Position numbers and translations under genes: made by a program. Source: Gammaproteobacteria bacterium (lineage in GTDB: Bacteria > Pseudomonadota > Gammaproteobacteria > UBA9214). Taken from it: DNA of 35,691 bases. The notes under the pieces were generated by a model. It made no database searches, was not told the DNA's origin, and worked only from the letters and a program-made list of their open reading frames with translations. Of the stretch, positions 11,554 through 34,227 are shown in pieces (the stretch's first letter is position 1; the number at the start of each line of letters is the position of its first letter). The DNA lies in contig CP070821.1 of assembly GCA_020344335.1 (NCBI GenBank), forward strand, positions 2,006,921 through 2,042,611, given 5' to 3'.

Positions 11554-12129
11554 TCCCTTCCGGTGACGCGAACATTCGTGGTACCCGCCATTAATCAGTA
11601 GCCTGCATTCTCGTTACGGTAGACACGGCGCGCCCTGCCGTGGCATGCCAGTAAAATCAGGGTCCCCTGACGAAATTCGCCGGCAACCATGCAAATGGCA
11701 AGCGGACAGCCCACGGGGCAGTTATCGATGCGGACCCCGCAAGACCGAGAAATCTATGAAAACCTTTTGTTCTACAGTTAATTACGTATTTCTGGCTGAT
11801 GTCTGCACCAGTGCATTGATGAAACACCCAAGTTTCAGAACTAGTTGATTTGTAATGCCAAGAGGCGCATATTGTCGCGTATTAGGAGCAGATACCCCCA
11901 ATACTGCAACAGTGATGACTACCCCTGTTGCAGGCATTGTCAGTTGGTACTACCTGCTGGCTGTATGGCAAAACAGCACCGCCGTCCGTCACGGACGCCG
12001 GTTTGCATCGGTATCCTCCACTAGAACAACATCATAGAAGAACGGCACACAGGGTCAGTTGCAGGCAACAAGACCACGGCCGGCAAAACAACAAACCCGG
12101 GGCACCCGGAAAAAGAAGAGGTTCACATT
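11554..12129. other. Intergenic region before the sigma54 activator gene
   Basis: About 576 bp without a convincing gene. Short open frames here lack family features or ribosome binding sites. Visible elements are a hairpin CACGGC-N7-GCCGTG (11624-11642) that may end the moxR operon transcript, a perfect palindrome TGGCATGCCA (11641-11650) and a small hairpin CGTCCG-TCA-CGGACG (11983-11997). AGAGG about 8 bases before ATG 12130 serves as ribosome binding site for the activator. No clear promoter hexamers were found. Confidence 0.5.
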
Positions 12130-14082
12130 ATGCAGATGAGTGAAGCCCATTCGCAGCACCGTGAGCGCGTTTTCTCGGTGATAACAAACAGTAACAGCGG
12201 GAAAACGGTCAGAAGACTGATTTCCAACTCCTGGAAACGCTGTGTCAACGAATACGGGCTGGATCCGGTGGAGTCCCGCGAGCCCACTTTCGTTGAAACC
12301 TCGTTCCTGCAGGAACGCCAGGAATCTCTTGATACCCTCCTGGAGATCGCCCGCGTCGAGATGGCCAACCTCTACCAGCAGATTGCCAACACGGGACACT
12401 CCGTACTGCTGACTGATGACTCCGGCATGATCATCCACTATACCGGTGATCCAAGCTTCGACTCGGCAGCCGCAAAACGGGGCCTGCAGGAGGGTGCAAT
12501 CTGGTCCGAGAAGACTCAGGGCACCAACGGCATGGGTACCTGCCTTGCCGAACAGAAGCCCGTCGTCGTACACCATGAAGAGCATTTCTTTGCCAACAAC
12601 CTGAACATCAGCTGCACCGCATCGCCGATTATCGATCCGAATGGCAAGATCCTCGGTGTCCTGGATGCCTCAAGTGAATCGAGCCGGGCACAGGAACACA
12701 CCATGGCCCTGGTGAACATGTCTGCCAAGACCATCGAAAATCGCATTTTTCTCTGCATGTTCAAAAACCACATCATTATCCGTTTTCACAGCCGCCCCGA
12801 ATTCGTCAACACACTCGGGGAAGGGCTGATCGCATTCCAGAGTAATGGCACCATCCTTGCCGCCAACAGCAATGCCCTCTTCCAGCTGGATTTCAAGTCG
12901 ATTGATGATTTGCGCGCGCACAAGATAGAGGACCTGTTCGACAGTCAACTGTATCAGTTGCTGCATCGCTCGCCCAACACCTCGTTGCGTGCAGTACCTA
13001 TCCATGAAATCAAGCATGCAAGGCGATTTTTTGCCATTGTCCAGGTCCCCGAGTCCGGTCAATACTTCCCCGGCCACTCGGCCTGCAAGGACGTCTGGAC
13101 AGACCCGCTTCCCGCGCCCAGCCTTCTCACCCGGCTGGAATTCGGTGACCATTACATGGCGCAGAATATTCGTATTGCGCAGCGCGTCCTGGACCGGGAT
13201 ATTCCCATTTTGCTCAAGGGTGAGAGCGGTACCGGCAAAGGCGTTTTTGCCAAGGCAATTCACATGTCCAGCCAGCGTGCCGACAAGCCCTTTGTCGCAA
13301 TCAACTGCGCTTCCATCCCCGAGTCCCTGATCGAAAGTGAACTGTTCGGTTACAAGGCCGGCGCCTTCACCGGCGCAAACCGCCAGGGCAGCCAGGGCAA
13401 GATCATGCAGGCAGACGGCGGTACGCTGTTTCTCGACGAGATCGGCGATATGCCACTATCACTGCAGGCCCGCCTCTTGCGGGTTCTCGAGGAAAAGGAG
13501 GTGGTTCCTCTGGGTGGACATACACCGCTGATGGTTGACATCAACATCATCAGTGCCACACACCGTAACCTGCAGGACATGGTGGTGGATGGTGACTTCC
13601 GGGAAGACCTCTATTACCGCCTGCAGGGGGTCAAGATCACCCTGCCACCACTGCGGGAACGATCCGACAGGTACAATCTGGTCAAGCATCTTATCGGGCT
13701 CGAAACCCAGGTCAGCTCGCCGGTACAGATCGAGGAAGAGGTCATCGACCAGCTCTGCAGCTATTACTGGCCCGGCAATATCCGCCAGCTGCGCAACGCC
13801 CTGCGGACCATGCTGGCACTCGCGGAAACCAATCACATCACCGCCGAGGACATGATCGATGACCTGTTCCGGGAAGCCCGCACCACCCCGGACACCACCC
13901 CCGGGGAACCCAGGAGCGAGACAGAAACCCTCGACCCCCTGCGCAATGCCGAGCGCGATGCCTTGCTGCAGGAACTCGAGCGACATCGCTGGAACATAAC
14001 CGCGGCTGCAAAACGACTCGACCTGAGCCGTAATACCCTGTACAGAAAAATGAAACGCTGTGGAATCTCGCTGCCCAGGTGA
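12130..14082 (+). CDS. Sigma54-dependent transcriptional activator, AcoR-like
   Basis: 650-residue bacterial enhancer-binding protein. An N-terminal GAF-type sensory region (about residues 65-200, with TQGTNGMGTCLAEQKPVVVHHEEHF as in AcoR) and a PAS-like segment (about 215-320) precede a sigma54-interacting AAA+ domain: P-loop GESGTGKG at 364-371, GAFTGA at 411-416, Walker B GGTLFLDEIGDM and WPGNIRQLRN. A Fis-type helix-turn-helix (HRWNITAAAKRLDLSRNTLYRKMKR) ends the protein. An intact GAFTGA loop means it should contact sigma54. The P-loop ends GKG rather than the usual GKE. Just downstream are two tandem sigma54 promoters facing the C1 operon, so it is very likely their activator. The inducer is unknown; a C1 compound is an inference. 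Confidence 0.93.
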   Translation: MQMSEAHSQHRERVFSVITNSNSGKTVRRLISNSWKRCVNEYGLDPVESREPTFVETSFLQERQESLDTLLEIARVEMANLYQQIANTGHSVLLTDDSGMIIHYTGDPSFDSAAAKRGLQEGAIWSEKTQGTNGMGTCLAEQKPVVVHHEEHFFANNLNISCTASPIIDPNGKILGVLDASSESSRAQEHTMALVNMSAKTIENRIFLCMFKNHIIIRFHSRPEFVNTLGEGLIAFQSNGTILAANSNALFQLDFKSIDDLRAHKIEDLFDSQLYQLLHRSPNTSLRAVPIHEIKHARRFFAIVQVPESGQYFPGHSACKDVWTDPLPAPSLLTRLEFGDHYMAQNIRIAQRVLDRDIPILLKGESGTGKGVFAKAIHMSSQRADKPFVAINCASIPESLIESELFGYKAGAFTGANRQGSQGKIMQADGGTLFLDEIGDMPLSLQARLLRVLEEKEVVPLGGHTPLMVDINIISATHRNLQDMVVDGDFREDLYYRLQGVKITLPPLRERSDRYNLVKHLIGLETQVSSPVQIEEEVIDQLCSYYWPGNIRQLRNALRTMLALAETNHITAEDMIDDLFREARTTPDTTPGEPRSETETLDPLRNAERDALLQELERHRWNITAAAKRLDLSRNTLYRKMKRCGISLPR

Positions 14083-14179
14083 TGCAGTGTTGCAAGATAC
14101 ACCAAGCACCACTGTGGCCTGTTCCATCCCTGACACACTGGACTGTTTCGCTTTGAGTGCAAGTGCCGGCCCCGCGTAC

Positions 14180-14195
14180 TGGTATGTAACTTGCC
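14180..14195 (+). promoter_or_regulatory. Sigma54 (-24/-12) promoter, first tandem copy
   Basis: TGGTATGTAACTTGCC matches the sigma54 consensus TGGYRYG-N4-TTGC, with the invariant GG (14181-14182) and GC (14193-14194) exactly 10 bases apart. Predicted start is near 14206. It is one half of a perfect 20-bp tandem duplication (14175-14194 and 14195-14214). Confidence 0.75.
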
Positions 14196-14199
14196 GTAC

Positions 14200-14215
14200 T
14201 GGTATGTAACTTGCA
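14200..14215 (+). promoter_or_regulatory. Sigma54 (-24/-12) promoter, second tandem copy
   Basis: TGGTATGTAACTTGCA is the better of the two copies because it ends in TTGCA (TTGCW). GG is at 14201-14202 and GC at 14213-14214. Predicted start is near 14226, giving a leader of about 215 bases before the flavoprotein ATG at 14441. The AcoR-like activator gene ends about 120 bases upstream. A GTGT-N8-ACAC inverted repeat at 14087-14102 and CTGACACACT at 14130-14139 are possible activator sites. Confidence 0.8.
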
Positions 14216-14440
14216 AAGTATCAGAATAATGAAAACAGATCGGGAGGAGCGGTAGAGTGATATCCCCTGCAAACGATTTCGCTGAAAGGGCAGACGATGG
14301 CGTGTTGCTCTCCAGCGCGACTCACTTCATCACCGGAGACAAAAGTTGCGAGAACTCGAACACCCACAACACCACCATGTTTGACATTGCCGTTCAGGAA
14401 GCAGATCAACAACGGGATTTTTCCCGGCAAGTGACAGGCC

Positions 14441-15091
14441 ATGCCAGCTAGACCAAAGACAAGTCGTCTTGCCTGGGCGCTGACCGGCTCGGGACACTAC
14501 CTGCGCGAGTGCCTGGCAATAGCGCAGCAACTCGACAATATCGACCTTTTCCTGAGTGGTGCTGCAGCAGAAGTACTCTATATGTACGGCTACCGGCTCG
14601 AGGAATTGCGGAATGAAATGCGGATCTACCGGGACCAGACAGACTGCGCTGCGCCGGTCGGCCTGTTTTATGAAGGGCACTACCATGCCATGGTCATTGC
14701 ACCCGCTACCTCCAACACGGTCGCGAAATGTGTCTGGGGCATTTCGGACACACTGGTCACCAATATCTTCGCCCAGGCCGGCAAGTGCCAGATACCATCG
14801 GTAGTATTTGCCTGTGATACGGCACCCGAACTGGAGAGTGAAGCACCGAACGGCACTGTAAAGGTTTACCCCCGCCAGGTAGACCTGCTCAATGTAGAGC
14901 GCCTGCGTGAGTTTGAATTCACGCAGGTGGTGAGCGACATCCCGCAGTTACGTCAGGCGATCGAGGGTATGAATCCATGTCTGAGCGCATCCTCTTTCAG
15001 ACCGGCAAGCTGGCGGAAAAGAACCTGCAAAGAGTCCTGCAGGAGATACAGCCGGTCTCGTTCACCACCGAGGTCTGCGAGCTGGGTTTAA
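14441..15091 (+). CDS. Archaeal-type flavoprotein, probable dihydromethanopterin reductase (DmrB-like)
   Basis: FMN-binding flavoprotein-domain protein of the type found in methylotroph H4MPT clusters; homologues reduce dihydromethanopterin to H4MPT in the last step of cofactor synthesis. Features include LAWALTGSGHYLRECL at the N-terminus, then MVIAPATSNTVAKCVWGISDTLVTNIFAQA, the flavin-binding segment. The family-like body ends at about residue 178. The final 38 residues, rich in Arg and Ser, come from reading the next gene in the wrong frame, because no stop occurs before 15091. The tail may be a real extension or the effect of a lost stop or small indel. It is first in the sigma54-driven operon. 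The specific reaction is inferred from context and homology. Confidence 0.8.
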   Translation: MPARPKTSRLAWALTGSGHYLRECLAIAQQLDNIDLFLSGAAAEVLYMYGYRLEELRNEMRIYRDQTDCAAPVGLFYEGHYHAMVIAPATSNTVAKCVWGISDTLVTNIFAQAGKCQIPSVVFACDTAPELESEAPNGTVKVYPRQVDLLNVERLREFEFTQVVSDIPQLRQAIEGMNPCLSASSFRPASWRKRTCKESCRRYSRSRSPPRSASWV

Positions 15092-16374
15092 ATGTCGCCG
15101 GACTGATGACGGCCGACATGATTCAGCGCCGCCTCGAACCGCCCGAAGGGGTCGACCGTATCATCGTGCCCGGTCGCTGCCGTGGAGATCTGGATGCACT
15201 GGGTGACCATCTCGGGATACCGGTCAGACGCGGCCCGGATGAACTCAAGGACCTGCCACAGTACTTCGGGATGGGTGCCGCGGAACCCGATCTCAGCCGC
15301 TATGACATCCGGATATTCGCCGAGATCGTCGATGCGCCCTTTCTGGATATCGATACCATTTTGACCCGTGCCGGGGATTACCAGGCCAGTGGTGCCGACG
15401 TCATTGATATTGGCTGCCTGCCGGACACATCGTTCCCGCACCTGGCCGAGTCGGTACAGGCCCTGCACAGCGCCGGCTTCCGTGTCAGTGTAGATTCGAT
15501 GAACCCGGATGAATTGCTAGCCGGCGGCCTTGCCGGCGCGGATTACCTGCTGAGTCTGCACGAGGACACATTGTGGATTGCCGACGAGGTAGCATCCGTC
15601 CCCGTGCTCATCCCCGGCGAGGCCGGCAATCTGGAATCCGTGCTCCGGGCTATCGACCGGTTGAGTTCAGAAGGACGACCCTGCCTGGCAGACCCCGTCC
15701 TCGATCCGCTGCTGCTCGGGTTCACGGAATCCATTATGCGTTACCGCGAATTGCGTACCCGGCGGCCGGATGTCGAGATCCTCATGGGGGCCGGCAATGT
15801 AACCGAGTTGACCGATGCCGACACCAGTGGCATCAATGCCGTGCTGGCCGGCATCGCCAGCGAACTGGGCATCCGCAACATACTCACTACCCAGGTCAGT
15901 GAACATGCCCGGCGAGTGGTTCACGAGCTGGACATTGCGCGCCGCACCATGTACCTGGCACGCAGGAATAACGAACTGCCGCGCAACCTGGACAGTCGCC
16001 TGCTGACCATTCACGAGCGTGACCCGTTTCCCTACAATCTCGGAGAAATAGAGGAAACCGCGGCTGCGGTTCGCGACCCGAGCTACCGCGTGCAGACCAG
16101 CGCAGATGGTATACACGTTTTCAACCGGGAAGGTCTGCAAACGGCTACCGATCCCTTTTCCCTGTATCCGCAACTGGAGTTCAGGGGCGATGCCGGCCAT
16201 GCCTTCTACATGGGGGCAGAACTGGCGCGTGCCCAGATCGCCTGGCAACTGGGCAAGCGATATGTCCAGGACGAGGAACTGGACTGGGGGTGTGCAGCAG
16301 ACAGGGAGGACGATGACCTTTCCACCCAGACGAGACATGGCTGCACCATGGGCAACACAGGTACCGATTCATGA
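14977..16374 (+). CDS. Dihydropteroate synthase-like protein of H4MPT synthesis (DUF6513-type)
   Basis: 465-residue protein with an N-terminal domain (residues 1 to about 130: VDRIIVPGRCRGDLDALGDHLGIPVRRGPDELKDLP) and a pterin-binding TIM-barrel related to dihydropteroate synthase (GADVIDIGCLPD, RVSVDSMNPDEL, LADPVLDPLLLG, EILMGAGNVTELTDADTSGINAVLAG). DHPS-like proteins of this kind accompany fae, mch and mtdB in methylotrophs and are thought to join the pterin to the ribofuranosyl-aminobenzene unit. It overlaps the flavoprotein frame by 115 bases and the DUF447 gene by 4 (ATGA). Classical folate DHPS is shorter, so the fused N-terminal domain is a useful distinction. Confidence 0.88.
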   Translation: MSERILFQTGKLAEKNLQRVLQEIQPVSFTTEVCELGLNVAGLMTADMIQRRLEPPEGVDRIIVPGRCRGDLDALGDHLGIPVRRGPDELKDLPQYFGMGAAEPDLSRYDIRIFAEIVDAPFLDIDTILTRAGDYQASGADVIDIGCLPDTSFPHLAESVQALHSAGFRVSVDSMNPDELLAGGLAGADYLLSLHEDTLWIADEVASVPVLIPGEAGNLESVLRAIDRLSSEGRPCLADPVLDPLLLGFTESIMRYRELRTRRPDVEILMGAGNVTELTDADTSGINAVLAGIASELGIRNILTTQVSEHARRVVHELDIARRTMYLARRNNELPRNLDSRLLTIHERDPFPYNLGEIEETAAAVRDPSYRVQTSADGIHVFNREGLQTATDPFSLYPQLEFRGDAGHAFYMGAELARAQIAWQLGKRYVQDEELDWGCAADREDDDLSTQTRHGCTMGNTGTDS

Positions 16375-16943
16375 TCAGGGAAACCATTATCACAACCCCG
16401 GCCGCGGACGGGAACACACACATCGCCCCGATGGGAATCAGACAGGAAGGCGAATACCTGCTGCTTGCGCCGTTTCGTCCTTCAGGAACCCTGGACAACC
16501 TGCTGCGGGAACGTATCGCGGTGGTCAATTATACCGTCGACGTGCGGGTGTTTGCAGGCTGCCTGACCGGCCACTGGCACTGGCCGCTTGTCCCCGCAGA
16601 CAAGGTCCGTACCAAGCGACTTCAAGAGGTACTCAGTCACAGCGAACTGGAAGTCCATCATGTGGAGGACGACGAGCTGCGACCCAGACTGCTGTGCAAG
16701 CCGGTTCACGAAGCAACCCATGCGCCTTTTCGGGGCTTCAACCGTGCACAGGCGGCGGTAATCGAGGCCGCGGTGCTGGTAAGCCGGTTGCACATGCGGC
16801 CGCTGGATAAGATCGAGGCGGAGGTGGATTATCTTGCCATTGCTATCGGCAAAACTGCCGGGCCGCAGGAACAGGAGGCATGGGACTGGCTGATGCAGGC
16901 GATTGCACAACATCGCAAGCAGTTGCTGGAGCAGTCTGCATGA
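16371..16943 (+). CDS. DUF447 family protein, H4MPT-linked
   Basis: 190-residue protein of the DUF447 family, shared by methanogens and H4MPT methylotrophs. It starts with MIRETIITTP and IAPMGIRQEGEYLLLAPFRPSGTLDNL, a flavin-reductase-like split barrel, and ends with a helical region (AQAAVIEAAVLVSRLHMRPLDKIEAEVDYLAIAIGKTAG). Its biochemical role is unknown. Its position between the DHPS-like gene and mfnB, with ATGA overlaps on both sides, ties it to C1 cofactor synthesis, possibly as a flavin- or pterin-dependent redox step. Confidence 0.82.
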   Translation: MIRETIITTPAADGNTHIAPMGIRQEGEYLLLAPFRPSGTLDNLLRERIAVVNYTVDVRVFAGCLTGHWHWPLVPADKVRTKRLQEVLSHSELEVHHVEDDELRPRLLCKPVHEATHAPFRGFNRAQAAVIEAAVLVSRLHMRPLDKIEAEVDYLAIAIGKTAGPQEQEAWDWLMQAIAQHRKQLLEQSA

Positions 16944-17656
16944 CGCGTTTACTCGCCAGCGTAACGGATATACACGAAGCGGCACTGGCCATGACCGGTG
17001 GCGCGGACATCATCGATCTCAAGGAGCCGTCCCGGGGCGTATTGGGTGCGGTATCCCACAACGTACAGCGCAAAGTCGTACAGTGGATCAACGGTCGGCG
17101 TCCTGTCAGTGCTACCGTCGGCGACCTGCCGATGATTCCGGAAACCATCGTCACTTCCATCCGGCATACTGCAAGCAGTGGCGTTGACCTGGTCAAGATC
17201 GGCATGCGCGACCTGGAGCGCCACCCCGCTTGCCTGGATGCCCTGGCAGAGGCCAGTGGTCACGGGATTCGCGTCGTTGCCGTGCTGTTTGCCGAGGACC
17301 AACCGGCCCTGCCTCTGCTTGGCGGTCTTCGCGACGCCGGTTGTCACGGCGTCATGCTGGATACTGCAGACAAGGGTTCGGGAAGACTGGTCCGGCACAT
17401 GGACATGTCCTCTCTGGGTGCCTTTGTCGGCAGTGCCCGCCGCCTGGGCCTGCTGACCGGACTGGCCGGATCGCTGCAGCCCGGGGATATCGGTGAACTG
17501 CGCAAGCTGGGTCCTGATTATCTGGGTTTTCGCGGCGCCCTCTGCGAGGAAGGTGCACGTACCGGACGCCTCTCGGCAAGTGCCCTGTCCCGGGTCCGCA
17601 TGCTGTTGAATTCGCCCGAAGATGATTACGTGGATCGCAGCCTGATGGCTAACTAG
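16940..17656 (+). CDS. mfnB: (5-formylfuran-3-yl)methyl phosphate synthase MfnB
   Basis: 238-residue TIM-barrel enzyme that makes the furan ring of methanofuran/methylofuran from two glyceraldehyde 3-phosphate molecules. The N-terminal MTRLLASVTDIHEAALAMTGG and IIDLKEPSRGVLGA are characteristic; Lys28 corresponds to the Schiff-base lysine near residue 27 of the archaeal enzyme. Later motifs are DLVKIGMRD and LLTGLAGSLQPGDI. ATG at 16940 overlaps the DUF447 stop by 4 bases. It is the last gene of the sigma54-driven operon; the other methylofuran genes lie on the opposite strand just beyond. Confidence 0.92.
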   Translation: MTRLLASVTDIHEAALAMTGGADIIDLKEPSRGVLGAVSHNVQRKVVQWINGRRPVSATVGDLPMIPETIVTSIRHTASSGVDLVKIGMRDLERHPACLDALAEASGHGIRVVAVLFAEDQPALPLLGGLRDAGCHGVMLDTADKGSGRLVRHMDMSSLGAFVGSARRLGLLTGLAGSLQPGDIGELRKLGPDYLGFRGALCEEGARTGRLSASALSRVRMLLNSPEDDYVDRSLMAN

Positions 17657-22563: not shown

Positions 22564-23076
22564 TCAGGAATGTGCCTGGAACGGATGATCGGCCGAGCCC
22601 TTGTTCGCCACGACCTCGCCTGCAGTCGGTTCTCCGTTGACGGCGCGCTTGATCGACAACTTGGTCGCTTCGTAATTGTAATCCTGTATCTTGTTGTCGT
22701 CCTCGGCCTCCCAGTGGATGAACACACCGACGCTGACATACAGGTCATCTGCTTCATCCGCCGGTATGGTGCCATCCTCGACACAGTCGGCAACCGCCAT
22801 CGCAACGCCGCGCTGCGCGGGACCGAACATCTGTACCGCCTGCTTCGCACCCTTGATGGTGACCTTGTTGAACATCACGGTAGACGGCTTGACCATCAGA
22901 TTCGGGGCAACCACCGCCAGCAACCCGTTGACACCTTCCTTCTGGTTGGTGAGCGTCTGGCAAAAGCAGTCTTCGGCAGCCGACCCGCGCGGGCCAATGA
23001 TCAGGTCAATATGGGCAACTTCATTGCCGTCGCCAACCAGGGCTTCGCCTACGAGAACTTTATCGATTTTAGCCAT
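22564..23076 (-). CDS. fae: Formaldehyde-activating enzyme
   Basis: Condenses formaldehyde with H4MPT to methylene-H4MPT, the entry step for formaldehyde in H4MPT methylotrophs. The 170-residue product has the standard length and conserved sequence: [20 protein letters not shown] with the catalytic His22, then [33 protein letters not shown] and [11 protein letters not shown] strong ribosome binding site (AAGGAG about 8-9 bases before ATG 23076) fits an abundant enzyme. It is the last gene of the mptG-to-fae unit, 26 bases after the citG-like gene, and may also have a promoter of its own inside that gene. Confidence 0.97.
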
Positions 23077-23102: not shown

Positions 23103-24047
23103 TCAAAAAAAGACCGGGTCTGCACACTGTGCTGACCCTGGCCCGTTCACGAGCAGTGACCCGGTAACTTCCTGCCGGTTTTGCAGATGCAGCACCATGA
23201 GAGCCGCAACCGTCATATCCGCAGTTGTACCGGGGTTAATGCCCTTCCGTTTGAGCTCCTTGTCGAATTCAGACAAGCGAGAAAACAGCCGGTTTTCCTG
23301 CATCTGGGGGGCAACGTATTCGACATACAGTTGCTTCGCCTTGCGGCAGACCGAGTTCGCTACATGCCTGTCGAACTCCCGCTGTATGTGTGTATCTGGT
23401 ATCGCTCCCAGCAGATACAGATAGGTTGTCATCGTGGCATGTTCACAACTCTGCAATCGCTCGGATTCTGCCTGCAGGTGTGGTACTGCAATTTCAAATA
23501 CATCTTCAAAGTCCGTAACATACTGGCGTGCGATCCGGTCACGCACAGCTGCAGCTGCCATCGCCTGCAGCAGGCCGATCCGGGGTTCCTTCTCCGCAAC
23601 ATCGTATTGCTGCACCACGCCGAGCCCGCCTGGCCTGGCGAGACGGATCGCCTCGAAGCACCGCTGCGTGTCGCGCCGGTCGAGACCCCGCAGGGTTGTC
23701 CGCAAGGACTGGCGCAGGGACTGGCCATGGGCAAGTTGGAGTGCGGCATGCGCGAGCGGCGCACACAGGAGCACGATTCCAAGATTGGTATTGCAGTCCA
23801 CCTCCCGTCGGGTACTGCGTACTGCATTGAGAATCCGCTCACCCACGCTGCTGCCCTGGCGTGACAGCTCCGGCGTTATTGCGCGGGCACTGCGCATGAA
23901 ATCTTCTGCCGTTTTGCCCTGTCCCCCACCATGCACACTGACATTACCGGGCTTCATGACGCCGAGCTCCGTCAGGCAGGCAAATTCCACAGCTTCGGCG
24001 ACCGCCTGCCAGCCGAATACCCCCTGCTCATGTGTGCAGCCGTTCAT
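23103..24047 (-). CDS. CitG/MdcB-like protein (triphosphoribosyl-dephospho-CoA synthase family), C1-linked
   Basis: 314-residue helical protein of the CitG family. Family motifs include LGVMKPGNVSVHGGG near the N-terminus, VDCNTNLGIVLLCAPLAHAA and the C-terminal GINPGTTADMTVAALMV. Classical CitG makes the prosthetic-group precursor of citrate lyase by moving ATP-derived triphosphoribose. No citrate or malonate lyase genes are here; the gene sits between mptN-like and fae, overlapping mptN-like by 4 bases. A ribosyl- or pterin-transfer role in cofactor synthesis is therefore more likely, but untested. Confidence 0.82.
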   Translation of the reverse strand: MNGCTHEQGVFGWQAVAEAVEFACLTELGVMKPGNVSVHGGGQGKTAEDFMRSARAITPELSRQGSSVGERILNAVRSTRREVDCNTNLGIVLLCAPLAHAALQLAHGQSLRQSLRTTLRGLDRRDTQRCFEAIRLARPGGLGVVQQYDVAEKEPRIGLLQAMAAAAVRDRIARQYVTDFEDVFEIAVPHLQAESERLQSCEHATMTTYLYLLGAIPDTHIQREFDRHVANSVCRKAKQLYVEYVAPQMQENRLFSRLSEFDKELKRKGINPGTTADMTVAALMVLHLQNRQEVTGSLLVNGPGSAQCADPVFF

Positions 24048-24952
24048 ACACCCACCACCCTGATCGCGCTGGACATCAAGTAACGGGTATGGAAGTCATC
24101 GACCAGCTGGCCTGCGATGTTGATCTCGGAGGTTGACTGCAGCCCTTTCCAGGCGGGTATGCTGTTCACCTCGATCACCTGCAGCCGGCCCCGGCCGTCA
24201 CGTATCAGGTCAACACCAGCGTAGTCCAGCGAGAGTGCGGCGGCCGAGGCTTCCGCCAGCACATCCAGGCCGTCATCGGCAGGACTTGGTGTACAGCTTG
24301 CACCCTGGGCAACATTGTTGATCCAGTGCCTGCCGTGCCGCTTCATCCTTGCCACCACCTTGTTGTTGATCACGAATACGCGCCAGTCAAAGCCGGCGTT
24401 CTCAACATAGCGCTGCAGGTAATAAACGCCCTGGTAGTCTTCCAGTGCCGGCAGCGCCTGGTGTGAAGACAGGCGCTGCAGCCCCTGCCCCTGCGAACCG
24501 AACAGTGGCTTGACGACCAGGCTGTTACCGGCTGCACGTTCACGCTGCCAGATCGAGTGCCCCTGTTCCGCGGAGGAAACCACCCAGGTGGGCGGCACAG
24601 GGATTCCGGCCTGCTGCAGCAGCAGACTGGTCATGCCCTTGTCGACAGTGCGCTCGATGGTGCGGGCCGTGTTGTAAACCGGGACATTCAGCGCATGCAG
24701 GGCATGCAGCACGTCAAGATAAAGCACGACCTGTTCGAGCGTGCCCCCCGGCACACCACGCACGAACACCCCGTCCGGCATGGCAGTCTCGAAACCCGGG
24801 ATCAACAGGCCGTTCCGGGAGTGGTGGAGATCGATTGCACAGTCCTTCAGGGACACGGTCTGCAACTCGTAACCACGCGCGGTGAATGCCTCGCGCAAGC
24901 GCGCGCCATGCCAGCCCGGGTCATCGGTGATCAGTGCAATCCTGGGGTTCAT
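24044..24952 (-). CDS. mptN: RimK-type ATP-grasp ligase, probable H4MPT:glutamate ligase (MptN-like)
   Basis: 302-residue ATP-grasp enzyme related to RimK and methanogen MptN, which adds alpha-glutamate to H4MPT. Motifs are [20 protein letters not shown] (nucleotide lysine and glycine loop), [29 protein letters not shown] and [28 protein letters not shown]. It lies directly after mch (4-base overlap) and before the citG-like gene. Whether bacterial H4MPT or methylofuran is glutamylated by this ligase is not settled; the bacterial methylofuran chain is polyglutamylated, so it could serve that instead. Confidence 0.8.
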
Positions 24953-25956
24953 TGTGCAGCACCGAAGGATCGATCGAGGATTTCCGGGTCAAAGGCCCCG
25001 GACTCGAAGGTGCGACCGGTATCCAGGCAGGACACCGTCACCCGCGCCGGACTGAAGAGCAGCGGGTCGATTTCGAAGAAGTCATGGTTGTAATCCCTGA
25101 ACACCTCCGCAAAGGGTTTGCCGTAATCCCTGGAGGTTGTGCTGGGAAGCTGCATGGCAAGATCACGCGCCTCGTCATCGGTGCCGCTGACGAACAGGTG
25201 CACATGGCCTCCGTAGAGTATCGCATCGTTGGTCCTCCCCATGCCGCTCACAAAGTCATGCGCGGGCGGTGGCAGGGGCGCACTGCCGGCACCGTCGATA
25301 ATCTGCTCGAGTGGGAAACCGAGGGTATGGGCCTTGTGCAGTGCCACTTCCAGCACCCGGGAGACGACCTGTGTGGTTCCGGCCAGGCTCAGGGTGGGCG
25401 TCAGGATCAGGGTCAGGCTGGCGATGGCCACACCACAGTCAGCGGCGATCTTTTCCGTCAAACCGGCCGGCGGAAACCGGTCTACCTCGAGGACCAGGCA
25501 GGTCGACTCGCCGCTGTCGCGATACCCGAGTTCTGCGAACAACTCCTCCTTGCCCGCCAGGGCGCGCCCGGGCCCGGATCCCAGGGCGTGAAAGGCCTCC
25601 TTGCCCTTGCCGTGCGACAGGCTCCAGCCGGCATACTGGCAGCCAAGACAGGCAATCACCGGATTGGTACTGTGCACACTGAGACTGAGAGGCCAGCGCG
25701 TGTGATTGCCGTCTCCGCCAAGACGGATGCTCCCCATCCCGCCCATGCAGATTTCGGCGATGCGGCGGCCCAGTTCGATTCCCCCGCGGGTGGCTATGCC
25801 TGCATCGATTACCCGGCAGCCATTCGGCATACGCTGCTCAACCAGGCGCAGGCAGTCTGCATCTGCACGCAAGTCTCTCAGCAGCTCCATGGCAGGCCGA
25901 TTGACGCCTGGCAGCGCAGCATCGTTGCCAGTGGAAGCGGGTGTGATGGATGACAT
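24949..25956 (-). CDS. mch: Methenyltetrahydromethanopterin cyclohydrolase
   Basis: 335-residue enzyme that interconverts methenyl-H4MPT and formyl-H4MPT. Recognisable segments are [58 protein letters not shown] and [20 protein letters not shown] at 25956 ([10 protein letters not shown]) was chosen over a GC-rich upstream extension to 26028 because it lies 7 bases past the previous stop and matches the N-terminus of known bacterial Mch. It overlaps mptN-like by 4 bases in a tightly packed operon. Confidence 0.95.
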
Positions 25957-25963
25957 GTCCGGG

Positions 25964-27124
25964 CTATCCTCCTGTGGCAATGCGACGCGTGAGGGACTCC
26001 CGGGCCGTAACGGCCGGCAACATGTCACGGATCATGCGACTCCGGCGGTCCAGTACCCCCCGCACCCGGGGTACGTGGTTGCCGACGGCATGTACCGTGC
26101 AGACAGGCTCGCCGGGCAGGATGGTACTGCCCGCTTCCGGTATGTCGCTGCACCAGCCCGGCCAGTGAGTGTCATTCGGTACGGTTATTTCACAGTCCGC
26201 ATACACCACGGCATGGGCACGCCCTGTGACGGAACTGCCGTGGAAGGACGGCATATCCCCACGACAGCACACAAGGTGCTGCCTGAACAGGTTGTCAGGC
26301 CTGCCAGGATCATAGAGTTCCGTGGTCGCGGTTGGCCGCCCGTTGATCTCAAGGACATAGAACTCGTTTTTGTCTACGACGATATCCACACCGTTCAGTC
26401 CCCGCAGACTGAGCCAATGAACCAGTGTCTGGATTGCATGTTTCACCTCCAGGCACAACGCGGAACCGATGTACTGGCCGGATACCGCACCACCATACCG
26501 GTAACATTCCGGGCTGTCCGTGGTATCGCGCCATTGTTCACTGATACCGATGATGGCCATGCGGCGTCCATTTGCGAGAAACAGCACCGACATGATGCGT
26601 CCCGGCAGCTTGCGCTGGTAGTAGTGGCCGGAGGAACCAGTCACCCGGTTTGCCGGAATGATGTGTGCACCACCGCTGGAACCAGGCCGCTTGGCAAGCC
26701 AGCCAATACTGTCCGCCGGGCGCCGGTAGGTGACCTGCGGGTGTGGAATACCCAGCCGGTCAAGCAATGAAAAAAAATAGCGCGGTGTACTGATATCCCT
26801 GAGCAGGGCGGGATCATTTCCGAACAATTCACGGCCTGCCGCGAGATCAGTCAGGGTCTGCGGGTCGGATTCAAATCCGGCCCCGTAGACAACCCCGGAG
26901 CACCTGCGCGGCGGGCACAGTCGCTCCGCCGCCTCCAGCAGGCGATCCCTGCTTATCTGCAACCGTGCATCCCCGATACGCGCAGAGGATTCGGCAGCCG
27001 CCTGTGTATCTGCATCTCCATAGACATCCAGCACGGTCACCGGTATCGACACCGCCTGTGCAGATTGCGCCAGCGCACGGCCGGACAGGGCCGCGACCAG
27101 ATATGATTCAGGTTTTATCGACAT
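25964..27124 (-). CDS. ATP-grasp protein of unknown function in the H4MPT cluster
   Basis: 386-residue protein of the ATP-grasp superfamily found between mtdB and mch. Visible motifs are [30 protein letters not shown] (a nucleotide-binding Lys/Gly loop), [26 protein letters not shown] and [22 protein letters not shown] with the metal-binding Glu and Asn. Orthologues sit in methylotroph C1 clusters without an assigned reaction. Ligation of an amino acid or acid to a cofactor intermediate is likely. ATG at 27124 overlaps mtdB by 17 bases; a GTG at 27148 is the alternative. Confidence 0.8.
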
Positions 27125-28016
27125 AACTCCGGGCAAGATCAAAGGCACTCTGGAAATCCAGGTACAGTGGCTTTTCTGTCGTCACCATATCCTTGAGCAG
27201 GGCGTGCTGAACCTGATACTTGACGTTGCCGACGGCAAGGGCTCCAATGCCAACCGCACCCTCCAGGCCGGCAATCGGTTTCCCGTCATCCATCAACTCA
27301 ACCCCCTCGATGCCAAGCGGCGGCACGGCATTCAGATCACCGGCCACTTTCAGGCGGCCAGCCGCTTTCAGATTCTCCGTAGTCAACAGCTGGACACCTG
27401 CCTTGGCAGTCCCGAATACGACGTCGGCCTCCGCCAGCAACGCTTCCTTCTTGCTATCGGAACTGCCATCGACACCATCGATGTTGTCAACGGCATAGCG
27501 ATCCATGCACGCCTGCGCCACGGCACGGGCCTGGGCATCCCCCTTGTGGCTGACGATACTCACGCTGGCGCCCGCGCGGGCGGCGAGGACGGAAGCCGCC
27601 TGGCCCACCGGCCCGGTACCCCCGAACACCAGGACTCGCTGGCCGCCAAGGTCCGCGTCATACCCCTTGCGCAGTTGATGCTCTGCACAGGCAACCAGTC
27701 CGGCGGCCGTAGTAAAAGCGCCGCTGGGGTCGGCAATAACAGAAACCTCGAAGGGCGGGACCATCGCTTCACGCGCCAGCTGCAGCATGTCCATTGCCAT
27801 GTCGATGTCCCTGCCACCGATAAAAATCCCGGTACGCCTCACACCTTTCGGACCGCGCGAAAAAATCGCATCCTGCACAAGTCCCGTGATTTCGGCAGCC
27901 TCGACGTCCGTGTAGGGAATCACGGTAGTCCAGCCCGCATCACAGGCCATGTTCACGTCAAACGGACTGGCATTTTTCGCCGGTGTGATCATGTGCATGA
28001 TGTAGGGTTTATCCAT
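27108..28016 (-). CDS. mtdB: NAD(P)-dependent methylenetetrahydromethanopterin dehydrogenase
   Basis: 302-residue dehydrogenase that oxidises methylene-H4MPT to methenyl-H4MPT. The N-terminus MDKPYIMHMITPAKNASPFDVNMACDAGW is typical of MtdA/MtdB, and the Rossmann motif VLVFGGTGPVGQAASVLAA binds the nicotinamide cofactor. Later segments LKVAGDLNAVPPLGIEGVE and GIGALAVGNVKYQVQHALL also fit. MtdA, which can use methylene-THF, is close in sequence; H4MPT use is favoured because of the neighbours fae, mch and mptG. It starts 23 bases after mptG. Confidence 0.93.
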   Translation of the reverse strand: MDKPYIMHMITPAKNASPFDVNMACDAGWTTVIPYTDVEAAEITGLVQDAIFSRGPKGVRRTGIFIGGRDIDMAMDMLQLAREAMVPPFEVSVIADPSGAFTTAAGLVACAEHQLRKGYDADLGGQRVLVFGGTGPVGQAASVLAARAGASVSIVSHKGDAQARAVAQACMDRYAVDNIDGVDGSSDSKKEALLAEADVVFGTAKAGVQLLTTENLKAAGRLKVAGDLNAVPPLGIEGVELMDDGKPIAGLEGAVGIGALAVGNVKYQVQHALLKDMVTTEKPLYLDFQSAFDLARSYVDKT

Positions 28017-28039: not shown

Positions 28040-29065
28040 TTACATGGCCGCACGCAGCGGGCCTCTGTGGAGGTCGGGCCGGGTATCAATGCGCCCGCCG
28101 TGATTGCGCGCCCGCACCAGCTCGAAGTGCAGCATGGGGCGGTCACTGAAGCGTCGTCTGGCAGACTGCAGCATGCGGGCACCGGCGGCCTCGCTGTCCA
28201 GGATGGCGAAACCGGTCGGTCCCCAGGAGCTTTGTCCGATGCCGTGGATCTCCTGTGCCTCCAGCCAGGCAAGCACCCTGGCCACCTCCGGGCTGGAAAA
28301 ACGGCCCGACTGTGCCGGTGAGAAGTAGTCGCCGACGACCTGCTGAACACGACCGATCGCGCGTCCGAAACACGCATGATCCTGTTCCGCCAGGGCCGGC
28401 AGGGCCTGCATCAGGAGCAGCCGGCAGAGCTCGGCGGCCTGCGAGGCAGGAAATTCCGGCAATGCGGCAAAGGCCGATACTTCCTCCTTGCCGTGGATCC
28501 CGGGTCCACGCCGGTCAAAAATGAGCAGCACGCGCCAGTCATCCGGAAAGTTTTCCTGCATGATCACCGGCGGCGGCCGGTCGTTGCCGCCGTTGCCCCC
28601 ATCAACCAGGAAACCACCGGACTCGAAGGCCCCGATACCGATGCCGGAGCGCATGCCGCGCATCATCAGGCCGGCAAGCTTGCGCAAATCCATATCGATC
28701 CCGTAGAGCACCAGCAGGCCGGTAGCAACGGCAAGGGCCAGCTGGGTACCCGAGCCGAGACCGATGTGATCGGGGATCGCACGCTTGATCCGGATGGCCA
28801 CACCCGGTGGCAGTTCGAGTGTCTCGAGCAGGGAAGCGGCAAAATCGTGTGCACGCACCCGGGCCGTGTCCGGCCCCTCCACCAGGAGTGACCGGGCCTG
28901 GGTGATTTCCAGTTCGGTGGCGATGCCTTCGAGCGTCAGGCCCAGACCGCCGAAACGGCGCCCCAGGTTGCCATTGAGGTCCAGAAAGCCGAGATGCAGG
29001 CGTGCCGGTGCCTCCACCTGTACCAACTGAAATTTCGGTGTCTTGTTATGGTTTTGCATCAGCAT
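28040..29065 (-). CDS. mptG: Beta-ribofuranosylaminobenzene 5'-phosphate synthase
   Basis: 341-residue GHMP-kinase-superfamily enzyme that condenses p-hydroxy/aminobenzoate with PRPP, the first committed step of H4MPT synthesis. Typical segments: VEAPARLHLGFLDLNG, RAIPDHIGLGSGTQLALAVATG (GHMP motif 2), MRGMRSGIGIGAFESGGFLVDGG and QSSWGPTGFAILDSE. Candidate starts are ATG 29065, ATG 29059 and TTG 29077. The sigma54 promoter directly upstream predicts transcription from about 29062, which would make 29059 a near-leaderless start, or would require a later GTG. The annotated start is therefore uncertain. It leads the mptG-to-fae operon. Confidence 0.9.
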   Translation of the reverse strand: MLMQNHNKTPKFQLVQVEAPARLHLGFLDLNGNLGRRFGGLGLTLEGIATELEITQARSLLVEGPDTARVRAHDFAASLLETLELPPGVAIRIKRAIPDHIGLGSGTQLALAVATGLLVLYGIDMDLRKLAGLMMRGMRSGIGIGAFESGGFLVDGGNGGNDRPPPVIMQENFPDDWRVLLIFDRRGPGIHGKEEVSAFAALPEFPASQAAELCRLLLMQALPALAEQDHACFGRAIGRVQQVVGDYFSPAQSGRFSSPEVARVLAWLEAQEIHGIGQSSWGPTGFAILDSEAAGARMLQSARRRFSDRPMLHFELVRARNHGGRIDTRPDLHRGPLRAAM

Positions 29066-29072
29066 ATACCAG

Positions 29073-29088
29073 AGCAACTGGCATGCCA
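29073..29088 (-). promoter_or_regulatory. Sigma54 (-24/-12) promoter of the mptG-mtdB-mch-fae operon
   Basis: On the minus strand TGGCATGCCAGTTGCT matches the consensus TGGCACG-N4-TTGCW at all positions but one (T for C), with GG and GC 10 bases apart. Predicted start is near 29062, almost on the mptG ATGs. It has the same layout as the tandem promoters at 14180-14215, so one activator could drive both operons. Confidence 0.72.
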
Positions 29089-29160
29089 GTTTTCCATTTC
29101 TTATTCTTTCCGGTATGTTACGGCATTGTCAGCGGTTTACTGCGACAGGCATGGGGCAGT

Positions 29161-29192
29161 CTGTTACACCTGCCTGCCCGCACTGTCACACC
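29161..29192. promoter_or_regulatory. Spaced direct repeats upstream of the mptG promoter (candidate activator sites)
   Basis: CTGTTACACC (29161-29170) and CTGTCACACC (29183-29192) match in 9 of 10 positions and start 22 bases apart, about two helix turns. They lie roughly 75-105 bases upstream of the -24 element, a common distance for enhancer-binding proteins. A related CTGACACACT (8 of 10) occurs upstream of the other sigma54 promoters at 14130-14139. Purely a pattern-based proposal. Confidence 0.35.
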
Positions 29193-31668: not shown

Positions 31669-31736
31669 ATGATTCCCCTGTTTCGATGATTCCTCTGTTT
31701 CGATGATTCCTTTGTTTCGATGATTCCTCTGTTTTG
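31669..31736. repeat. Four 17-bp tandem repeats in the hprA leader
   Basis: Unit ATGATTCCTCTGTTTCG occurs at 31669-31685, 31686-31702, 31703-31719 and 31720-31736 with one or no mismatches per copy. Read on the minus strand each unit holds AGAGGAATCAT or a variant, a Shine-Dalgarno-like core; the unit next to the hprA ATG has AGGGGAATCAT and acts as its ribosome binding site. Such repeats gain or lose copies easily. Confidence 0.85.
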
Positions 31737-32668: not shown

Positions 32669-33301
32669 ATGTCACTGACACCAGAAGAACTGGAAGCAAT
32701 CATGGAACGCAAAGGTAAAATGCGTCGCGAGGCTTATGACAGACGTAATGCCCAGGAAAACAAGGACGAGATCAGTGCGAAAGCAGTCGCACGCTTCATG
32801 GCATTACCAGAGTATAAAAAAGCCAAAACGGCAATGTGGTACATCGACTGCCGCTCTGAAACCCGCACCAAACCCGAGTTGCTTGAAGAAGTAGCCAAGG
32901 GGGAAAAGAAAATCATCGTTCCCTACTGCACCGTAGACGAAAACGGTGAAAACAAACTCGGGTTGTGGTGGATGGAAAGCCTGGATGAGATGGTGGTAGG
33001 CAAATGGAACATCCTCGAGCCACCCAAAGAGATGTGGGGCAATTCTGCAAAAGAAGTAGAGCCGGAAGAACTTGACATTATCCTGGTCCCCGGTGTTGGC
33101 TTTGACCGTAATGGCGGACGCATGGGCAACGGTCAGGGTTATTATGATCGGCTGCTGGAAAGAGCGCGCCCGGACTGCCCGCTTGTTGCACTTTGCTACG
33201 AGTCCCAGCTGTTTGACGAAATCCTGGTTGCGCCTCACGATGTCTACATGGACAAAGTCATTACCGAAGACGCCGTATACGAAGGCAAAGGAAGAGACTG
33301 A
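32669..33301 (+). CDS. 5-formyltetrahydrofolate cyclo-ligase-like protein
   Basis: 210-residue protein of the MTHFS family, which converts 5-formyl-THF to methenyl-THF with ATP. The family signature LVPGVGFDRNGGRMGNGQGYYDRLLERA is present and the N-terminal MRREAYDRRN matches the ATP/substrate region. GCGGGG about 10 bases upstream serves as ribosome binding site. The stop overlaps the fhcD start (TGATG), so the two are coupled. Joining with fhcD and folD suggests a dedicated role at the folate/H4MPT junction rather than general repair of 5-formyl-THF. Confidence 0.85.
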   Translation: MSLTPEELEAIMERKGKMRREAYDRRNAQENKDEISAKAVARFMALPEYKKAKTAMWYIDCRSETRTKPELLEEVAKGEKKIIVPYCTVDENGENKLGLWWMESLDEMVVGKWNILEPPKEMWGNSAKEVEPEELDIILVPGVGFDRNGGRMGNGQGYYDRLLERARPDCPLVALCYESQLFDEILVAPHDVYMDKVITEDAVYEGKGRD

Positions 33302-34227
33302 TGGCCGCTACAATTGATGATACCTATGCAGAGGCCTTTAAAAGTATCTATGTAGAATTTTTAATCACGGCAAAGAATCGCAAATGGGTGGAACATGCGG
33401 TCAATGCCGCCACAGGCAATGGCTCCAGTTCAATTCTCTGTGACTGCGAAGCCGGCCTGGACCGCTATGTTGGACCGGGCGGTGATGAAAGCTTCGTTAC
33501 CCCGGACGGAAGACCCGGTGCGATTGTTCAACTGCATGTTCCACGCTTCTGGAAAGACCGCAAGGAACGCCTGGAAAAGTCCGCGCTGGTACGCATCAGC
33601 CAGAATGTGCTGACCTGCCCCACAGCCTCCTGCTTCAACCTCATCGATTCCGACGAGTACTATCATATGGGCCGCAAGGTGGCCTACTTTGGTAATGGCT
33701 ACCAGAAGCGGATCGAAAGGTACGGTCGCAAAATGTGGTGGATTCCGATTCTCGGTGGAGAATTTGTACTCGATCGCAGGCTGGGCCATGCCGATGGGTT
33801 GATGGGCGGCAATCTCTGGTTCTTTGCTGAAGACATCGACTCCGCCCTGGAAGCCGCTGAAAAAGGCTGCGAGGCCATTCAGCCGGTCGATGGCGTGATT
33901 ACCACCTTCCCCGGCGGTATCGCGGGCAGTGGTTCAAAAGCCGGCAGTGATTATGACTTTACGATTGCCAGTACCTACGAAAAATACTGCCCCATGCTGC
34001 AAAACGATCCCACCGTCGAAGGCGCTTTACCGGATGGAGTCAACTCCGTGATGGAAATCATCATGAACGGCCGTGACATGGCATGCATCATAGAGGCAAC
34101 CCAGGCCGCTATTAATGCCAGCAGGGATACAGAAGGCCTGATGATGATTTCTGCAGGCAACTATGGCGGTCGCCTGGGGAAAAGCTTTATCTACCTGCAC
34201 CCGGACAAGCAGCCACCATTGAGCTGA
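33301..34227 (+). CDS. fhcD: Formylmethanofuran:H4MPT formyltransferase, FhcD (Ftr)
   Basis: 308-residue formyltransferase subunit of the formyltransferase/hydrolase complex; it moves the formyl group of formyl-H4MPT to methylofuran. Conserved segments include DDTYAEAFKSIYVEFLITA, CDCEAGLDRYV, PDGRPGAIVQLHVPRFWKD, LVRISQNVLTCPTASCFNL and FPGGIAGSGSKAGSDYDFT. Length matches known Ftr proteins. In many methylotrophs it is encoded with fhcC, fhcA and fhcB; here it is placed between cyclo-ligase and folD-like genes, with fhcB following about 1.4 kb later. Confidence 0.95.
   Translation: MAATIDDTYAEAFKSIYVEFLITAKNRKWVEHAVNAATGNGSSSILCDCEAGLDRYVGPGGDESFVTPDGRPGAIVQLHVPRFWKDRKERLEKSALVRISQNVLTCPTASCFNLIDSDEYYHMGRKVAYFGNGYQKRIERYGRKMWWIPILGGEFVLDRRLGHADGLMGGNLWFFAEDIDSALEAAEKGCEAIQPVDGVITTFPGGIAGSGSKAGSDYDFTIASTYEKYCPMLQNDPTVEGALPDGVNSVMEIIMNGRDMACIIEATQAAINASRDTEGLMMISAGNYGGRLGKSFIYLHPDKQPPLS

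Follow-up and report, generated by a model that had tools for sequence, protein, structure and literature searches.

The H4MPT route is one of the major pathways by which bacteria oxidise formaldehyde. Regulators of formaldehyde metabolism comprise, among others, FlhRS, EfgA/TtmR, FrmR, HxlR and AdhR, and the parts of the review that deal with them (PMC8879981) name no sigma54-dependent activator of H4MPT operons among them. Nor did we find, in the open literature (subscription papers being outside the scope), a description of sigma54 control of H4MPT genes or of a dedicated sigma54 regulator. The nearest precedent is the promoter of mmoX (soluble methane monooxygenase) with its activator MmoR, which carries a GAF domain in some methanotrophs (PMC5874634).

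The locus that we compare with these systems is the mptG operon, which lies on the minus strand of the window, i.e., of the whole analysed stretch of 35,691 nucleotides. The gene order mptG-mtdB-ATP-grasp-mch-rimK-citG-fae is conserved in relatives.

28040..29059, minus strand: mptG (beta-RFAP synthase), with an in-frame ATG at the predicted +4 (29059) and another at -3 (29065)
27108..28016, minus strand: mtdB, methylene-H4MPT dehydrogenase (Pfam Mpt_N)
25964..27148, minus strand: ATP-grasp protein, a member of the mptG operon by synteny
24949..26028, minus strand: mch, methenyl-H4MPT cyclohydrolase
24044..24952, minus strand: RimK-like ligase
23103..24047, minus strand: CitG-like protein
22564..23076, minus strand: fae, formaldehyde-activating enzyme

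The mptG promoter is conserved across gamma- and betaproteobacteria

The initial annotation placed a near-consensus sigma54 promoter at the head of the mptG-mtdB-mch-fae operon. The proposed site was confirmed in the sequence, where it differs at one base from the consensus TGGCACG-N4-TTGCW.

29073..29088, minus strand: sigma54 (-24/-12) promoter of mptG, TGGCATG-CCAG-TTGCT (TGGCATGCCAGTTGCT), assigned by the consensus match and the conserved position in relatives
29062, minus strand: predicted transcription start of the mptG operon, 12 nt past the C of the GC element, as derived from the -24/-12 geometry

The -24 GG, the -12 GC and the correct spacing between them, as expected of a sigma54 promoter, are all present, and the genome encodes rpoN. 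Apart from the mptG site, the window contains no exact match to TGGCAYGNNNNTTGCW; when one mismatch was allowed, 5 matches were counted vs. 1.24 expected from shuffles. Genome-wide, 113 near-consensus sigma54 matches were found vs. 68 in the reversed control (1.7x), among the matches listed, which include the minus-strand ones only in part. A single exact site per window is weak evidence, and it is the comparative evidence that is decisive.

To compare the mptG loci, we scanned 80 of them from named genomes, 76 of which were testable, for a site with at most one mismatch lying 25-110 bp upstream of the point where the homologous coding sequence begins. Such a sigma54 site was clearly present in 11 of the 76 loci, whereas the site density in the remaining parts of these loci predicts 0.13 (Poisson P about 5e-18, relatedness ignored). 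The site-bearing loci include betaproteobacteria, Thiotrichales, Chromatiales, Thiorhodococcus and Thiodictyon, while none of the sampled Methylococcales and alphaproteobacterial mptG loci had a sigma54 site in the -110 to -25 interval. Within the same order, mptG orthologs occur in just two other genomes, G012 and G015, and both bear a sigma54 site at the same place before mptG (TGGCACACCAGTTGCT and TGGCATAGGCGTTGCT, respectively). A survey of the class added the mptG promoters of G392, G300 and G306; the more distant mptG genomes of this sample (G024, G030, G033, G050) had no sigma54 site at mptG. The place of the promoter is conserved across gamma- and betaproteobacteria, and its assignment to the head of the operon is thus borne out.

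The promoter adjoins the start codon

Of 15 promoters, 10 have an in-frame ATG at the predicted +1 to +4, those of the window's own, the G392 and the G306 type among them, and this leaves essentially no space for a ribosome-binding site (P about 4e-14 against a naive 2% per promoter, relatedness ignored). In the other five, the first in-frame ATG is located at +19 to +50; ordinary leaders are predicted for the two Thiorhodococcus strains (T. drewsii AZ1 and T. minor DSM 11518). In many mptG promoters, a downstream GTG near +46 provides an alternative start. Because the in-frame ATG coincides with the predicted +1 to +4, the sequence suggests that the mptG mRNA is leaderless. At L139:1251 and L161:5912, the ATG at the predicted +4 and +2, respectively, is out of frame with mptG and opens a short upstream ORF.

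Three conserved boxes upstream of the promoter

Two CTGTYACACC repeats 22 bp apart, which had been noticed upstream of the promoter at a typical enhancer distance, are indeed present on the plus strand (CTGTTACACC at 29161-29170 and CTGTCACACC at 29183-29192). Their conserved core, however, is TGTNACA, and there are three boxes rather than two, the third having been overlooked. By count, the CTGTYACACC 10-mer is unenriched in the window (3 matches with at most one mismatch, 4.28 expected).

29184..29190, minus strand: candidate activator box 1, TGTGACA, at -128 (same position in L110, L111, L112, L117 and G392; -127 in G300)
29162..29168, minus strand: candidate activator box 2, TGTAACA, at -106, conserved more widely than the other two (present in G392 and G300 as well)
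29141..29147, minus strand: candidate activator box 3, TGTCGCA, at -85 (TGT[CG]GCA at this position in the window and in two relatives of the family; -84 in G392)

All three lie within the range of about 80-150 bp upstream that is expected for the sites of sigma54 activators. In the window, G012 and G015, TGTNRCA boxes (at most one mismatch) start exactly at -128, -106 and -85, with spacings of 22 and 21 bp, although the remaining spacer sequence has diverged among the three. TGTNACA with at most one mismatch was found within 2 bp of -106 in 10 of 12 promoters, the mean over all scanned positions being 0.5, and it ranks first of all 4096 NNNxNNN patterns at -106 in these 12 promoters. In some relatives the boxes are weaker or shifted (-119 in L115 and G306; none in L139). 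The box positions kept in relatives support the proposed enhancer role. A perfect TGTNRCA pair with the 22-bp spacing is unique to the mptG promoter in the 2.62-Mb genome: the search for the boxes elsewhere gave no second perfect pair (24 matches vs. 31 in the reversed control), and no other target was recognised, so that further regulon members are not predictable from the boxes.

A candidate activator co-occurs with the promoter

12130..14082, plus strand: candidate dedicated activator with GAF, sigma54 AAA+ (GAFTGA present) and HTH_8 domains, 15 kb from the mptG promoter

The protein combines an AAA+ domain bearing Walker motifs and the GAFTGA loop with a DNA-binding HTH, as is expected of a bacterial enhancer-binding protein. 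It is encoded by one of the eight strong sigma54-activator genes in the genome, the only one inside the window. Since seven others exist and the binding of the GAF activator to the boxes is a prediction, the promoter might be sigma54-dependent with its boxes bound by another activator (e.g., an NtrC-type nitrogen regulator), and the GAF activator might serve something else. The distribution of this gene speaks against such a division of roles. Activator orthologs occur in 3 of 3 mptG-bearing genomes of the order vs. 0 of 20 others, the full-length ones (64-69%) only in G012 and G015, the mptG-bearing relatives. Among 38 mptG genomes compared, 27 of which we picked from loci without the site, orthologs scoring above 370 bits were found in 10 of 11 genomes with the sigma54 site vs. 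0 of 27 without it (Fisher 2e-8, relatedness uncorrected), and the best match of the activator query in the 27 site-less genomes reached 230 bits. The exception is HyVt-581 (L111), a draft MAG, which has the promoter without an activator ortholog.

Moreover, the activator gene lies directly upstream of cofactor genes in nearly all genomes with a readable neighbourhood; the adjoining genes are 6-pyruvoyl-tetrahydropterin-synthase-like or afpA, then DHPS-like, DUF447 and 4-HFC-P synthase. There are no H4MPT genes near the weaker activator matches in G416, G361 and G342. Both lines of evidence, co-occurrence and linkage in the genome, point specifically to the GAF activator, and we consider it very improbable that another activator occupies the boxes. 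The gene 15 kb away likely encodes a dedicated activator for the mptG operon.

In a tree, the H4MPT-linked activators cluster strongly, though they do not strictly form one clade (G060 is not in the tree): G062 is placed without resolution beside other GAF activators, and a second G181 copy falls inside the H4MPT-linked cluster. The activator missed the NCBIfam cut-offs of its best-scoring models, PrdR (324 of 795 bits) and DhaR (313 of 551), and the AcoR model was absent from the matches listed for it.

Two further sites were observed near activator genes. A 12-mer shared with the mptG promoter occurs in TGGCATGCCAGT at 11640-11655 of the window, some 480 bp ahead of the activator gene; it lacks the -12 GC. 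In G067, a perfect-consensus sigma54 site, TGGCATGGCGCTTGCT (L221:4726-4741, minus strand), lies about 450 bp upstream of the fae that adjoins the activator gene.

Cofactor genes, fhc genes and the extent of the regulon

14180..14195, plus strand: sigma54-like site TGGTATGTAACTTGCC, the first copy of a tandemly duplicated element
14200..14215, plus strand: sigma54 site TGGTATGTAACTTGCA, after the activator gene and before the cofactor genes (TGGTATGAGACTTGCA in the same place in G015)
14441..17656, plus strand: cofactor genes, namely flavoprotein (afpA-like), DHPS-like, DUF447 and 4-HFC-P synthase

Sigma54 sites with at most one mismatch separate the activator from the cofactor genes in the window's own genome, G015, G300, G144, G115 and G306. 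Many other relatives have no such site after the activator gene, and their cofactor operons may rely on read-through. In the window the site is tandemly duplicated at 14178-14215, GTACTGGTATGTAACTTGC occurring twice, 20 bp apart. Between the 14.2-kb sites and the flavoprotein gene (14257-14451, plus strand), there is a 64-codon remnant of a 6-pyruvoyl-tetrahydropterin-synthase-like gene. In G015 (L087 from 7909) the gene is longer and has an open reading frame; in G012 it has decayed as well, and with it the sigma54 site has gone.

Nine relatives carry an fhc gene (fhcB; fhcD in L115) that diverges from mptG and is served by its own outward-facing sigma54-like site (at most two mismatches) at a distance of 156-267 bp, so that the boxes sit between two promoters. 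For fhcA and fhcB, there was no match above the cut-off in the window's genome. At L233:7880-9133 (G000:C1 about 1002880-1004133), glnK is followed by a run of N and then by the last fhcD residues and fhcC. Loss of fhcA/fhcB from the genome was our first reading, dropped for a probable assembly gap on account of the run of N before the surviving fhcC; the single-contig genome may thus be a gapped scaffold. An ftr gene at 33301-34224 of the window (plus strand), just 40% identical to the fhcD of a relative and situated between 5-formyl-THF cyclo-ligase and folD, is possibly a second formyltransferase with another role.

The initial annotation united formaldehyde oxidation and cofactor synthesis in one sigma54 regulon, partly because of a related 10-mer near 14.18 kb. 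That 10-mer proved weak, CCTGACACACTGG at 14129 ranking just ninth when the window was scanned with a matrix, and the window's own 14.2-kb promoters show no clear copies of the mptG-type boxes. A shared 10-mer is by itself unconvincing as a ground for the one-regulon idea, which is nevertheless well supported by the conserved promoter and boxes in relatives, the co-occurring activator and the position of the activator gene next to the cofactor genes.

Other explanations of the mptG upstream region

A sigma70 promoter, or read-through from hprA-sgaA, might instead account for most of the operon's transcription, with the sigma54 site being minor or a chance match. A weak sigma70-like match, CTGACA-N18-AAGAAT, is located at 29132-29103, and sgaA and hprA lie upstream of mptG on the same strand in the window. 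However, neither hexamer is recognisable in the aligned relatives, where the upstream neighbour of mptG is the divergent fhcB and not sgaA, and the element conserved at mptG is the sigma54 site, which leaves this explanation very improbable. Finally, the perfect 16-bp palindrome AACTGGCATGCCAGTT is real, overlaps the sigma54 site and could form a plus-strand hairpin with a T-rich tail at 29076-29091, but that it should act as an operator for a repressor or other regulator, or as a hairpin, and resemble a sigma54 site by mere coincidence is hardly credible, because the relatives keep the sigma54 element and break the palindrome (TGGCACACCAGTTGCT, TGGCATAGGCGTTGCT, TGGCATGCACGTTGCT).

Just before hprA, at 31680-31735 of the window, there are also short tandem repeats (about 17 bp, cctctgtttcgatgatt).

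Proposed mechanism

Taken together, the results allow us to propose, with a probability of roughly 0.87, that the H4MPT C1 operon is controlled from 29062-29192, by sigma54 and a linked GAF activator acting on TGTNACA boxes and giving a near-leaderless mRNA. The promoter, the boxes, their conservation and the co-occurrence and linkage of the activator come from the sequence and its comparison, and the conserved sigma54 promoter with three upstream activator boxes switching on the formaldehyde-oxidation operon is very probably real.

From these data we infer binding, signal, exact start and leaderless translation as follows. Sigma54-RNA polymerase would bind the -24/-12 element at 29088-29073 and be held there in a closed complex. 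The GAF-AAA+-HTH activator (12130-14082) would bind the TGTNACA boxes, centred at about -125, -103 and -82 and predicted by their 22- and 21-bp spacing to lie on one face of the helix. A signal reaching the GAF domain, presumably a C1 intermediate, would trigger ATP hydrolysis and thereby promoter opening. Transcription would then start from about 29062, at or a few nucleotides before the mptG ATG, yielding a leaderless or nearly leaderless mptG-mtdB-...-mch-...-fae mRNA. The same activator probably drives the adjoining cofactor genes (14.4-17.7 kb) and, in relatives, also the divergent fhc operon.

A broader proposal, to which we give even odds, is that in non-methanotrophic proteobacteria a hitherto undescribed dedicated sigma54 activator uses its GAF domain to sense a C1 intermediate and controls the H4MPT pathway as a whole (fhc, mptG-fae and cofactor synthesis), and that the fusion of its main promoter to the start codon, leading to a leaderless mptG mRNA, has been kept across families.

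Comparison with known systems

On this proposal, the H4MPT pathway gains a specific, testable control circuit with a named gene, a predicted binding motif and promoters, which can be tested in cultured relatives, e.g., Thiorhodococcus drewsii and T. minor, and which might serve as a formaldehyde or C1 biosensor.

The AcoR/DhaR-type activators share the GAF-AAA+-HTH domain order with the window activator. Its orthologs, however, constitute a largely separate group linked to H4MPT genes, whereas the AcoR/DhaR-type activators are linked to acetoin, dihydroxyacetone or proline genes. The mmoX/MmoR system likewise combines a C1 operon, transcribed from a -24/-12 promoter, with a clustered gene for a sigma54 activator, but it serves methane oxidation in methanotrophs. 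Here the predicted targets are the H4MPT pathway of formaldehyde oxidation and its cofactor, and the genomes lie outside the methanotrophs sampled. A sigma54 regulon with its own activator is known as a kind, and what is unusual here is a promoter that sits at the start codon and has kept this place in relatives.
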